Source: Candidatus Timburyella stercoris (GTDB lineage: Bacteria > Bacillota > Clostridia > Oscillospirales > Acutalibacteraceae). Taken from it: 35,951 nt of DNA. The translations under genes and the position numbers were made by a program. Shown here one piece after another: positions 18,709-23,952 of this stretch (the stretch's first letter is position 1; every line of letters begins with the position of its first letter). The notes under the pieces were generated by a model. The model was not told the DNA's origin, did no database searches, and saw only the letters and a program-made list of their open reading frames with translations. Location of the stretch: the NCBI GenBank assembly GCA_904384255.1, contig CAJFJP010000005.1:1-35951 (forward strand), written 5' to 3'.

Positions 18709-21384
18709 TTACTGCTTATGGATGCGAATAGATTTATTATAAATCCGCTTTACAAGCTTTACAATTTCCACTTGAACAATGGAGAGTAAAGATAACCCGA
18801 TTACAATAAGCCATTGTATGCCGTTCAGTGAAGTAAGCTGAAATGCATTTCTCAAAGCCGGAATAAACAAAATACATAGCATTAGCAGTGCAGAGGCAAG
18901 AAAAGAAACTACCAGCCATACATTTATTCCTTCTGCTCTCACCCAAATAGGCTCTGTATTAGAGCGCTGATTAAAAGCTCGCAGCATCTGTGAAAAGGCC
19001 AGTACACAGAATGCCATGGTCTGCCCGGCGAAATGACCGCCCAGATGTGCGCCAATCCAGTATGCACAGGTAGTTATAGCTGCCACGAAAATGCCTTGTG
19101 TAATGACACGGCGTACTAAATCTTTTTCAAATAGAGTACCTGATTTAACAGGCTGATGTTTCATAATATTTTTACTTGCCGGATCAATACCCAATGCCAA
19201 CGCAGGCAGGGTGGCTGTAGCAAGATTTACCCACAAAATATGAACCGCAAGCAAAGGAGCCTCCCAATTAAATAATGTGGCAATGAACAAAGTTAGAATT
19301 TCTGCTATATTACCAACCAGAAGAAATTGTATAACCTTTTGGATGTTTCGATATACACGTCGGCCTTCTTTAATGGCATAGGCAATCGTAGTAAAGCTAT
19401 CGTCAAGCAAAATCATATCAGCGGCGTCTTTAGCTACATCCGTGCCGGTTATGCCCATAGCAACACCGATGTCCGCCGCTTTTAATGCGGGAGAGTCATT
19501 TACACCGTCACCGGTCATAGCGGCAACTTCACCAGTGCGTTTTAAACTTTGAATAATTCTAAATTTATCGGCAGGCGATACACGGGCAAAAACAGTAGTA
19601 GTTTTAACGACTTTGTCAAGAGCATCATCATTCATATTGTCAAGCTCGTCACCGGAAATTACTGTATCGCCGTCTCGATAGATTTCCAGCTCTTTTGCAA
19701 TAGCGAGAGCCGTTATTTTATGGTCGCCGGTAATCATAATTGTTCGAATACCAGCTTGACGACAAGTGCGTACAGATTCAGCTACTTCTTTCCGCGGCGG
19801 ATCTATCATGCCAGCTACGCCGATAAATGTCATGTCAAACTCTACATTTTCATCATCGTCCGCTGGCAAAGCCGGCAAAGTGCGCATGGCAAATCCAAGT
19901 ACACGCAGTGCGTTTTCTGACATAGAAAGGCAGAGCTTTGTAATATGTTCTTTGTCTGCTACTGTAATAGGCCGCACTCCGCTGGAAGTCAGAATGTGCG
20001 TGCAGAGGAAAAGCATCTCATCTACTGCACCTTTTGTATAAGCAATTATGCGGTTATCAATTTGATGTACCGTTGTCATTCTCTTTCTATCAGAGTCAAA
20101 GGGCTGTTCAAATAAGCGCGGGTATTCATCTTCCAAACTTTCATGATCAATTTCAAAAGCCTGAGCCATGTAAATTAGCGCACCTTCGGTCGGATCGCCG
20201 ATAATTTCACCTTTACGGTCCGGATCAAGGCTTGCATCATTACAAAGGGCGGCGGCATAGACCAGTTCTCTATATACCTCCGGATGCTGTTGAGAAGCAT
20301 CTTCAACCGGCGTGGTTTTCCCGGCCTCAAAATCTCCGTTAACCGCAATATGCGTTACGGTCATTTTATTCAAAGTGAGGGTACCGGTTTTATCTGAGCA
20401 AATTACAGTAGCGCTTCCCAAAGTTTCCACAGCAGGAAGTTTGCGTATCAGCGCATTTTTCTTTGCCATACGCTGTACGCCCAACGCCATTACAATTGTA
20501 GCCGTTGCAGGTAATCCCTCAGGGATAATGGAGATTGCCAGAGAAATTGCAACAAGAAATTGTGGAATAAGAGGACGTTGGTACAATGCGCCAATGGCAA
20601 AAATCAAAACACAGACAATAAGTCCTATTATAGTAAGAGTTTTGCCAACCGCATTTAGCTTCCGTTTAAGAGGGGTATCCATATCATCCTGATTATCAAG
20701 CATGCCGGCAATATTTCCCACTTCTGTATTCATACCGGTTGCAACTACAACACCCGCTGCGCGTCCGTAGGTTACAATAGCAGATGTATATACCATGTTG
20801 CTGCGGTCACCGAGAGGGCAATCTTCCGGCAAAATATCTTCTGCTTCTTTTTCAGATGGGACGGATTCTCCTGTTAAAGACGCTTCCTGAACCTTTAAAT
20901 TTGCAGACTCAATTAACCGCAAATCGGCCGGGATCATGTCACCGTCACTTAGCATTACAATATCGCCTATAACCAACTCGCCGGCAGGGATAATACTTTC
21001 CTCGCCCTGTCGTAGTACGCGGGCAGTGGGGGCGCTCATATTACGCAGCGCCTCCAGCGACGATTGCGCTTTTTTCTCTTGCACAATACCGATGATTGCG
21101 TTGACAATAACGATGATAAAAATTACCAACGCCTCTGTCCATTCTCGTAAAAAAGCGGAGAGTGCTGATGCGCCTATAAGAATGAGTACCATTGGATCAA
21201 AAATTTGTGCTTTCAGCATTTGCAAAATAGTCTTTGGCGGCTTTGAGCGCAGCTCATTGCGCCCATTTTTTCTAAGCCTTTCAGCAGCCTCGGCATCGCT
21301 TAGCCCATCTTCAGAGGTGTGTAAACTATGATAAACTTCTGTAATTTGCTGAGCATGCCAAGGCTTGCGTTTGTGATTATCCAT
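18709..21384 (-). CDS. Cation-translocating P-type ATPase (P2-type, annotated-as-calcium family)
   Basis: PEGLPATATIVMALG, CSDKTGTLTLNKMTV, TGDGVNDSPALKAADIGVAMG; start reassigned from 21474 to ATG at 21384 (MDNHKRKPWHAQQ), since the 21474 start lies next to the leader terminator. Confidence 0.93.
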   Translation of the reverse strand: MDNHKRKPWHAQQITEVYHSLHTSEDGLSDAEAAERLRKNGRNELRSKPPKTILQMLKAQIFDPMVLILIGASALSAFLREWTEALVIFIIVIVNAIIGIVQEKKAQSSLEALRNMSAPTARVLRQGEESIIPAGELVIGDIVMLSDGDMIPADLRLIESANLKVQEASLTGESVPSEKEAEDILPEDCPLGDRSNMVYTSAIVTYGRAAGVVVATGMNTEVGNIAGMLDNQDDMDTPLKRKLNAVGKTLTIIGLIVCVLIFAIGALYQRPLIPQFLVAISLAISIIPEGLPATATIVMALGVQRMAKKNALIRKLPAVETLGSATVICSDKTGTLTLNKMTVTHIAVNGDFEAGKTTPVEDASQQHPEVYRELVYAAALCNDASLDPDRKGEIIGDPTEGALIYMAQAFEIDHESLEDEYPRLFEQPFDSDRKRMTTVHQIDNRIIAYTKGAVDEMLFLCTHILTSSGVRPITVADKEHITKLCLSMSENALRVLGFAMRTLPALPADDDENVEFDMTFIGVAGMIDPPRKEVAESVRTCRQAGIRTIMITGDHKITALAIAKELEIYRDGDTVISGDELDNMNDDALDKVVKTTTVFARVSPADKFRIIQSLKRTGEVAAMTGDGVNDSPALKAADIGVAMGITGTDVAKDAADMILLDDSFTTIAYAIKEGRRVYRNIQKVIQFLLVGNIAEILTLFIATLFNWEAPLLAVHILWVNLATATLPALALGIDPASKNIMKHQPVKSGTLFEKDLVRRVITQGIFVAAITTCAYWIGAHLGGHFAGQTMAFCVLAFSQMLRAFNQRSNTEPIWVRAEGINVWLVVSFLASALLMLCILFIPALRNAFQLTSLNGIQWLIVIGLSLLSIVQVEIVKLVKRIYNKSIRIHKQ

Positions 21385-21463
21385 ATTGGATAAACCATTC
21401 CTTTCTTTAAAAAAATAATATATTTTTGACCACCTTTCAGCGGTGACCAGCAAAAAAGAAACA

Positions 21464-21510
21464 CAAAAAGGCATAGCCTGCTTTCTAACGGTTAGATACA
21501 GGTTATGCCT
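21464..21510 (-). terminator. Intrinsic terminator (attenuator) in the P-type ATPase 5' leader
   Basis: Transcript AGGCAUAaCCUG...CAGGcUAUGCCUUUUU; ~80 nt upstream of the ATPase start. Confidence 0.8.
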
Positions 21511-21581
21511 AATATATAAAACTTATTCAGTTTCAAATAAATATTACTTCGGTCAGCGTCGCTACTATCGGCGTCGTCCAT
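21492..21581 (-). CDS. Candidate leader peptide, 29 aa (MDDADSSDADRSNIYLKLNKFYILGITCI)
   Basis: ATG...TAA ORF missed by the ORF track because of length; its 3' end overlaps the 5' arm of the leader terminator; AGGAA upstream at somewhat long spacing. Confidence 0.6.
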   Translation of the reverse strand: MDDADSSDADRSNIYLKLNKFYILGITCI

Positions 21582-22019
21582 AATTTTGGGTTCAATTCCT
21601 TTTCTCAATATTATTTTAGTAATCATTATATGTAATAATCATACTTTTGTCAACCGAGTCTTTGACAAGATTATGAGTCAAGAGATCTATGCCTTTCCAG
21701 TCTTTTAAATCATTTGCCCGTGCATAGTTGGCATATTTTTATGGGAATCCATAACAGCCAATATCTATATAACTAATTTCAAAATAGCACTATACTTTAA
21801 ATTTAAAATATTATTTTTGACAATGTACAATTAAGCAATTTAACATTCCAGCCTTTTTAAAAGTTATGCAGACTTTCACCTAAACAATTTAAATTTTAGC
21901 TTTTTATTAAAATGTCACCGTAGCAATATAAAGCTTACTTAGACATATAAAGAAGTTATAAAAATATGTTGACACCACATGTATCCAAACTTTAGTAAAA
22001 AGCCGGCGCACGTACTGCC

Positions 22020-22326
22020 TCAAGACTCAGTCTGGTGACAATAGTCTGGAGATATAGGTGATTTATGGGCAGTGAGTAAAATAAAAACTGAGTGCGAACG
22101 CGACCTTGCATCCAGGCTCAGCCTGTGGGAAGCATTGACAAAATAGATACCCACTGAAAACGCGAGTGAAAAGGTAAAATAAAAAACTGAGCCCGAATGC
22201 GAACATACGTCCAGGCTCAGCCTGGTGGAAAGCATTGACAAAATAGATACCCACAGAAAACGCGAGTGAAAAGGTAAAATAAAAAACTGAGCCCGGAACG
22301 CGAACATGCGTCCAGGCTCAGCCTGG
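22020..22326 (-). repeat. Tandem array (~100-bp unit, about 4 copies, decaying) of the tRNA-Arg 3' flank/terminator
   Basis: 'ccaggctcagcctg' motif begins at about 22021 (degenerate), 22111, 22210, 22311; units share 'agcattgacaaaatagatacccac.gaaaacgcgagtgaaaaggtaaaataaaaaactgagcccg'. Confidence 0.88.
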
Positions 22327-22403
22327 TGGCCCGCCCGAAGGGATTCGAACCCCCAACCTCTGGAATCGGAATCCATTGCGCTATCCAATTGCGCCACGGG
22401 CGG
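22327..22403 (-). tRNA. tRNA-Arg, anticodon CCG, 3' CCA encoded
   Basis: CCGCCCG TG GCGC AATTGGATA GCGC A ATGGA TTCCGAT TCCAG AGGTT GGGGG TTCGAAT CCCTT CGGGCGG G CCA; 7-bp acceptor stem. Confidence 0.95.
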
Positions 22404-23463: not shown

Positions 23464-23952
23464 ATGTTTAGGCAAATGCGAAGAAAAAATCAGCAGCTTT
23501 CTTTAGAGGAGTGCAGCGAAATATTAGTTAATGGAAGTTCTGGTGTACTGGCACTGGAAGGAGATGACGGATATCCTTATGCTGTTCCGCTCAGCTTTGT
23601 TTATAATGATAAAAAGATATTTTTCCACTCCGCAAAGACAGGTCATAAGATAGACAGCATAAAGTCAAATGATAAAGCGTCGTTTTGCGTTATAGCAAGA
23701 GATGATGTGAGACCAGAGGAATATACTTCATATTTTAAAAGCGTAATTGCGTTTGGCAAAATACGAATTTTAAAAGATGAGGAAGAAATACGAAAAGCTA
23801 TTGCTTTGCTGGCAATTAAATATAATTCGCAGGACAGCATTGAAAAGAGAGAGCGGGCAATCGAAGCGGGGTATGCAAACTTATGTATGCTTGAGCTTAA
23901 AGTTGAGCATTTAACAGGAAAACAGGCAAAAGAGCTGATTGATAAGAAATAG
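23464..23952 (+). CDS. Pyridoxamine 5'-phosphate oxidase-like (NimA-like) flavin-binding protein
   Basis: GYPYAVPLSFVYNDKKIFFHSAKTGHKIDSIKSNDKASFCVI. Confidence 0.88.
   Translation: MFRQMRRKNQQLSLEECSEILVNGSSGVLALEGDDGYPYAVPLSFVYNDKKIFFHSAKTGHKIDSIKSNDKASFCVIARDDVRPEEYTSYFKSVIAFGKIRILKDEEEIRKAIALLAIKYNSQDSIEKRERAIEAGYANLCMLELKVEHLTGKQAKELIDKK

Follow-up and report, generated by a model that had tools for sequence, protein, structure and literature searches.

An acidic leader ORF running into an intrinsic terminator upstream of cation-transporter genes in many gut Clostridia: a possible ribosome-dependent attenuator

The window, that is the whole stretch of 35,951 nucleotides analysed here, comes from the draft genome (2.0 Mb, 190 contigs) of Candidatus Timburyella stercoris. 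It carries on its minus strand a gene for a P2-type cation ATPase preceded by a leader with its own promoter, a short upstream ORF (uORF) and an intrinsic terminator. The features are the following.

21625..21653, minus strand: promoter TTGACA-17-TATAAT, 12/12 match to sigma-A, 43 nt upstream of the leader ORF
21597..21604, minus strand: Shine-Dalgarno-like sequence GAAAAGGA (AAAAGGA) of the leader ORF, its position kept in alignment A1
21492..21581, minus strand: acidic leader ORF of 29 codons, MDDADSSDADRSNIYLKLNKFYILGITCI*
21552..21578, minus strand: acidic stretch DDADSSDAD, codons 2-10 of the leader ORF, presumed to be ribosome-destabilising
about 21466..21510, minus strand: intrinsic terminator AGGCATAACCTG..CAGGCTATGCCTTTTT, whose 5' arm is shared with the end of the ORF
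about 21427..21450, minus strand: second hairpin between the terminator and the ATPase ribosome-binding site, with compensatory changes at 5/5 pairs (alignment A3)
21388..21406, minus strand: extended Shine-Dalgarno AGAAAGGA(G)TG..ATCC of the ATPase, near-invariant in 24 leaders
18709..21384, minus strand: P2-type cation ATPase of 891 aa, with the M6 motif NLATATLPALALG

Transcription is predicted from the promoter to start at about 21618. The small acidic ORF had been described in the initial annotation, which also took its final codons to be the 5' arm of an intrinsic terminator and placed the ATPase start codon about 80 nt further on, and the locus bears out all three points. Indeed, the ORF follows a Shine-Dalgarno-like sequence; its last codons form one arm of the hairpin AGGCATAACCTG...CAGGCTATGCCT, which is followed by TTTTT and is contained in the minimum-energy fold, the whole leader being 2.5 standard deviations more stable than shuffled sequences; and some 80 nt after the hairpin comes the ATG at 21384 that fits the conserved ribosome-binding site. 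The stop codon of the leader ORF lies 15 nt inside the terminator 5' arm. A longer ATPase ORF of 921 codons, starting at 21474, was rejected, its start being inside the hairpin and not conserved. The similarity of the extended Shine-Dalgarno of the ATPase (AGAAAGGAGTGATTGATCC in relatives) to the complement of the 16S 3' end extends well beyond the core and would account for the 15 nt that separate AGGAG from the ATG. The initial annotation had missed the sigma-A promoter, as well as the presence of the same leader before the CNNM genes described below.

Relatives of the window ATPase with 61-90% identity are found in Clostridia, Lactobacillus, Clostridioides and Akkermansia. Most of those from Clostridia display the same order of promoter, acidic uORF, terminator, in many cases second hairpin, and ribosome-binding site, and a promoter with at least 10 of 12 matches lies 28-62 nt upstream of the uORF in 36 of 43 leaders. 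Of 78 homologous ATPase leaders, 41 carry an acidic uORF under fixed criteria (Shine-Dalgarno, ATG or GTG start, length of 15-75 aa, four or more D/E among residues 2-11, position within 330 nt); dinucleotide shuffling of the same set leaves 0.26 on average, and 1 of 256 generic intergenic regions qualifies. The same criteria retrieve none in the 30 leaders of genes encoding MgtE importers. The leader is absent from the ATPase homologues of Clostridioides difficile and Lactobacillus; a DNA search in the same genus matched only the window itself, the one other member of the genus covered by it showing no leader. In a different phylum, Akkermansia glycaniphila carries a version of it, with the peptide MDQSSSDDNGS and a terminator reading GGCATGACC/GGCCATGCC.

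The ATPase leaders were made into a covariance model (R1), and its search in two genome samples, of 391 and 300 respectively, identified, for example, an ATPase leader reading MDDSDESDTDRK... in genome G386 (E=9.7e-20). Partial matches spanning only the terminator, and matches to Asp-rich protein ends (L134, L321, L325 and L333), were discarded as chance. One MgtE gene (L331) is preceded by a similar uORF (MDGDASSPYPAWSRF...) and a hairpin with no clear T-run; the model match beside this gene falls on the promoter, not on the uORF, and this single case was set aside. On the basis of these comparisons, the acidic leader over a terminator occurs far beyond the window, in many gut Clostridia.

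As a test, the initial annotation had proposed to look for conservation of the frame, its acidic N-terminus and its overlap with the terminator arm, with a bias towards synonymous changes, and the leaders clearly pass it. Among 30 distinct aligned ATPase leaders, pN/pS is 0.34 in frame as against 1.24 and 1.19 in the +1 and +2 frames, and codon third positions vary most (p=0.0005). The Asp codons swap GAC and GAT and also change to Glu, and the Arg11 codon alternates between CGA and AGG, a two-step synonymous change, while the AGC of codon 7 is nearly invariant. Judged from these substitutions, the leader ORF is under coding constraint and the peptide, not just the DNA, is conserved.

The acidic residues occupy a precise part of this peptide. 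D/E account for 48% of residues 2-10 and 5% of residues 11-20 in 43 ATPase uORFs (41% and 5%, respectively, in the CNNM uORFs), and basic residues show the reverse distribution; D/E-X(0,1)-D/E is found in 41/43 and 25/26 uORFs. The commonest ATPase leader peptide is MDDADSSDADRS, with variants such as MDDSDESDSERS, MEESDSSDPDQS, MDASDSDADGK and MSGDDGDSTADNP. Ser and Ala are interspersed among the Asp residues and, unlike in MgtL, the leader peptide of the enterobacterial mgtA gene, Pro is often absent; some uORFs nearer the MgtL type combine Asp/Glu with Pro (MSDSSDSDSEPPSP, MDDSPLPEP, MEDSSVSDIEPPS).

In all 42 distinct ATPase leaders, frame 0 ends no more than 12 nt short of the terminator arm or continues into it, whereas the other two frames get that far in only 13 and 16 of them; for CNNM leaders, the corresponding figures are 28 of 28 for frame 0 and 15 and 10 for the others. 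Although indels place the arm anywhere between 56 and 82 nt from the ATG, the frame still reaches it in the 42 ATPase leaders, the uORF passing right through the terminator in 11. What the leaders conserve is this reach of the frame to the arm; the exact overlap of the window, with the stop codon 15 nt inside the arm, is not kept. The terminator helix itself has changed on both sides, in a compensatory manner, at 8 of 10 consensus pairs.

The possible effect of a ribosome was calculated on the 42 ATPase leaders with a simple model of ribosome-covered RNA. The median terminator energy is -22.1 kcal/mol for the free RNA, again -22.1 when a ribosome sits at codon 10, but only -4.9 when the stop codon or the arm is occupied. 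In this model, the terminator is unaffected by a ribosome at codon 10 in 42/42 leaders, and it loses half of its energy or more in 33/42 once the ribosome is at the stop codon or on the arm. A few leaders (L039, L118) have their stop codon 10 nt before the arm, so that the footprint covers only 2-3 nt and most of the calculated energy is kept. Altogether, translation of the leader ORF and the geometry that couples it to the terminator are strongly supported by the comparison of leaders.

No useful Rfam match was obtained in the leader at gathering or permissive thresholds, which returned only a tRNA and chance matches, and no metal riboswitch (M-box, yybP-ykoY, NiCo and others) was detected in the window or at 16 related loci. 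Together with consensus folding, these searches support the earlier proposal that no aptamer is involved. Likewise, no conserved antiterminator appears in alignment A1, RNAalifold on 42 leaders returns the terminator only, and no alternative conserved fold was found in the leaders. By eye, uORF codons 9-11 (CUGACCG) seemed able to pair with the second hairpin's 3' arm (CGGUCAG), but this fails in L045 and was abandoned. As no conserved antiterminator is predicted, direct occlusion of the terminator by the ribosome is the simplest model.

The R1 search also matched leaders of CNNM/CorC-type genes, which are unrelated to P-type ATPases and belong to a family whose characterised members export Mg2+ (PMC12421838). 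The CNNM identity was read from the sequences and agrees with a PF01595 search, which places CNNM domains at the positions of these genes in several of the genomes (e.g. G131:C1, G108:C36, G081:C51 and G093:C30). The peptides (MDSDAGDSNAE, MEDSTDGDNP, MEDSDSSDGDRS, MDADDDDANGNN...) are acidic at the same place as those of the ATPase leaders. A model built from CNNM leaders alone (R2) matches the window ATPase leader (E=6.1e-10) and other ATPase leaders, and its new matches having an acidic uORF and a readable downstream gene again precede CNNM genes. Under the fixed criteria, 13 of 94 CNNM leaders carry an acidic uORF (dinucleotide-shuffle mean 0.40), an upper figure, as some of these uORFs (L206, L253, L255) look like tails of upstream coding sequences.

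The window ATPase falls in the P2 Ca-ATPase-like group; among solved structures, Listeria LMCA1 and the Ca2+ pumps of eukaryotes match it best. However, the 'Ca' label is unsafe, because the Ca2+-binding Asp of transmembrane helix 6 (M6) is replaced by Ala (NLATATLPALALG); the acidic M6 ligand of Ca2+-transporting P2A ATPases of the SERCA/LMCA1 type (SERCA D800) is thus lacking. The same replacement is seen in almost every leader-bearing homologue for which M6 was examined (loci L039-L118), and the equivalents of E771 and N768 are retained in this Ala-bearing subfamily. Two paralogous ATPases of the window genome keep the Asp. Although the subfamily is annotated as Ca2+ pumps, the motif indicates that it probably transports another ion, for which Mg2+ is, by analogy with the CNNM partner genes, a reasonable candidate.

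Acidic residues that are next to each other, or nearly so, among the first 30 of a protein pause or release the ribosome; motifs of the D/E-X(0,1)-D/E class destabilise E. coli ribosomes and, in MgtL, respond to Mg2+ (PMC11282234). Such an effect demands that the acidic residues be placed at the N-terminus, which is the only place where the uORFs have them. The leader is therefore somewhat more plausibly than otherwise a transcription attenuator that relies on ribosome destabilisation. At low free Mg2+, the run of Asp, Ser and Ala codons at the uORF start would destabilise the young elongating ribosome, and a shortage of anything else that stabilises ribosomes could have the same effect. A ribosome that survived would reach the end of the uORF and cover the terminator 5' arm, so that RNA polymerase would read on and the exporter gene would be transcribed; one dropping off among the acidic codons would leave over 25 nt between itself and the arm, so that the terminator would fold and the gene would be off. 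On this scheme, high cytoplasmic Mg2+ should lead to more export, because completed uORFs would mask the terminator. The initial annotation held that the direction of the effect could not be predicted from the sequence, a view that we would revise, because complete translation is suggested as the ON state both by the genes that follow and by the lack of an antiterminator. The presence of the leader before two unrelated transporter families further suggests that ribosome stability is used as a magnesium gauge that switches export on. We infer the destabilisation by acidic residues in these bacteria, the Mg2+ signal and the ON-at-high-Mg2+ direction. Against this reading stand the Ser and Ala among the Asp residues, the frequent lack of Pro and the few leaders in which the footprint barely touches the arm, as well as two general considerations: destabilisation by acidic residues has been demonstrated mainly in E. 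coli and yeast systems, and in some Firmicutes transcription outruns translation, which would weaken the coupling between uORF and terminator.

A translated attenuator could also respond to a signal other than Mg2+, such as translation capacity, ATP sensed via an EttA-type ABC-F protein, or ribosome-targeting stress. Ribosome pausing and drop-off at early acidic residues are countered by EttA, which also acts on MgtL (PMC11282234), and ABC-F-like proteins are present in the genome, none of them above the EttA cut-off. However, the two unrelated cation-transporter families found downstream, one of them with characterised Mg2+ exporters, favour a cation signal and make this alternative rather unlikely.

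The sign might also be opposite, drop-off at low Mg2+ turning the gene on through an alternative RNA structure, as for mgtA, with the ATPase as an importer. MgtL does run in that direction in enterobacteria, and the altered ion-binding site of the ATPase leaves its direction of transport uncertain. Nevertheless, no conserved antiterminator pairs exist upstream of the terminator, the footprint calculation indicates that a dropped-off ribosome leaves the terminator free, and the partner genes belong to a family whose characterised members export, whereas the MgtE importers lack the leader (30/30); we consider this improbable.

Two further alternatives place the sensor elsewhere. The Asp-rich nascent chain might itself bind Ca2+ or Mg2+ inside the ribosome and cause a metal-dependent stall, as the D-x-D-S-S-D-x-D of the window peptide resembles a small metal-binding loop. 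Yet the spacing varies (MDSDAGD, MEDSTDGD, MSGDDGDSTAD, MDADDDDAN) in a way ill-suited to a binding loop, and the acidic residues would still sit deep in the tunnel, so that such a sensor is very unlikely. Alternatively, the leader could act as RNA, with GACAGUAGCGAC being an aptamer or protein site and the ORF incidental. The nucleotides around AGTAGCGAC are indeed well conserved among close relatives, and codon 7 is nearly invariant, but an RNA-level motif was rejected on the frame-specific pN/pS; two-step synonymous changes such as that at Arg11 and the CNNM leaders, whose nucleotides have fully diverged from those of ATPase leaders with the acidic peptide kept, also speak against it, and little credence is left for it. 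Lastly, classical attenuation through shortage of charged tRNA-Asp, suggested by the abundance of Asp codons (172 D among residues 2-10 of the 43 ATPase uORFs), was rejected as barely credible, since Glu freely substitutes for Asp (MEESDSSDPD, MEDSDSSDGD, MEDSSVSDIE), the regulated genes are unrelated to Asp and no antiterminator was found.

Like the leader described here, MgtL of mgtA in E. coli and Salmonella is a short uORF with N-terminal acidic residues upstream of a P-type ATPase gene, set in a divalent cation context, and early drop-off is proposed to decide transcription termination. Coding constraint, promoter and Shine-Dalgarno point to a translated short uORF before a divalent cation transporter gene here too, and the acidic residues, often accompanied by Pro in MgtL-type leaders, lie within the first residues. 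The output differs: refolding of the mRNA exposes a Rho site in the MgtL system, whereas the uORF here overlaps an intrinsic terminator, a conserved hairpin with a T-run; MgtL turns its gene on when translation aborts, whereas completed translation is predicted to do so here. Direct comparison of the peptides with the EPDP motif of MgtL gave no sign of homology: they lack this motif and are unrelated beyond acidity. The P-type ATPase is also of a different class and the hosts are Firmicutes. In Salmonella, high Mg2+ induces the Mg2+-protection genes corC (ybeX) and mgpA, a destabilising stretch at the N-terminus of CorC itself and the YoaL leader ORF of mgpA each being proposed as the reason (PMC12421838). 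The effect there is on the gene's own translation or involves ORF overlap, whereas a separate leader ORF would act here on a transcription terminator.

Attenuators of antibiotic genes in Firmicutes (vmlR) and that of ilvB in Corynebacterium also combine a translated uORF with an intrinsic terminator and let ribosome position decide read-through. In those systems a stall forms an antiterminator (for ilvB, PMC11109978), and the quantity sensed differs. More generally, the leaders share with trp/erm-type attenuators a uORF whose translation would meet the terminator region (42/42 and 28/28 leaders) but not, according to RNAalifold on 42 leaders, mutually exclusive antiterminator and terminator structures. 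The M-box and yybP-ykoY riboswitches likewise control Mg2+/Mn2+ transporter genes in cis in Firmicutes, but the information appears here to reside in a peptide.

Enterobacterial MgtL is essentially the one known case in which cations are sensed through the destabilising effect of nascent acidic residues on ribosomes, and most CNNM-type genes have, to our knowledge, no described regulator. The literature searched, mostly openly accessible main texts, contains no description of such a leader in Firmicutes, and the main texts of two large intergenic-region surveys mention no P-type ATPase or hemolysin-type gene. We propose, tentatively, that these leaders represent an undescribed and widespread Mg2+ sensor of Firmicutes with ribosome stability as receptor, in which a finished acidic uORF overrides an intrinsic terminator, two unrelated exporter families are on at high Mg2+, as the logical mirror image of MgtL, and a P2 ATPase subfamily with a rebuilt ion site exports Mg2+. 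If so, destabilisation by nascent acidic residues would be a general principle that extends to Clostridia and perhaps further, with a variant that is inverted, relies on a terminator and governs export; a regulator would be supplied for CNNM-type genes, and a function for a P2 ATPase subfamily now annotated as Ca2+ pumps.

Some minor observations may be added. The CNNM proteins themselves (L177-L296) are often acidic at their start (MDSDS.., LETDSS.., MDDSIG..), with at least 2 D/E in residues 2-9 in 32 of 94, a count made without a control set; these starts recall the self-encoded destabilising N-terminus of CorC. No acidic uORF precedes the CNNM gene of the window genome itself (L237, MDDGPIG..). 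Upstream of the leader, a tRNA-Arg(CCG) gene (22403-22327, minus strand) is directly followed by a 100-nt tandem repeat (22076-22329; 2.5 copies, 91% match), and a NimA-like gene of the 5-nitroimidazole reductase family lies at 23464-23952 (195 bits, below the NCBI cut-off of 260).
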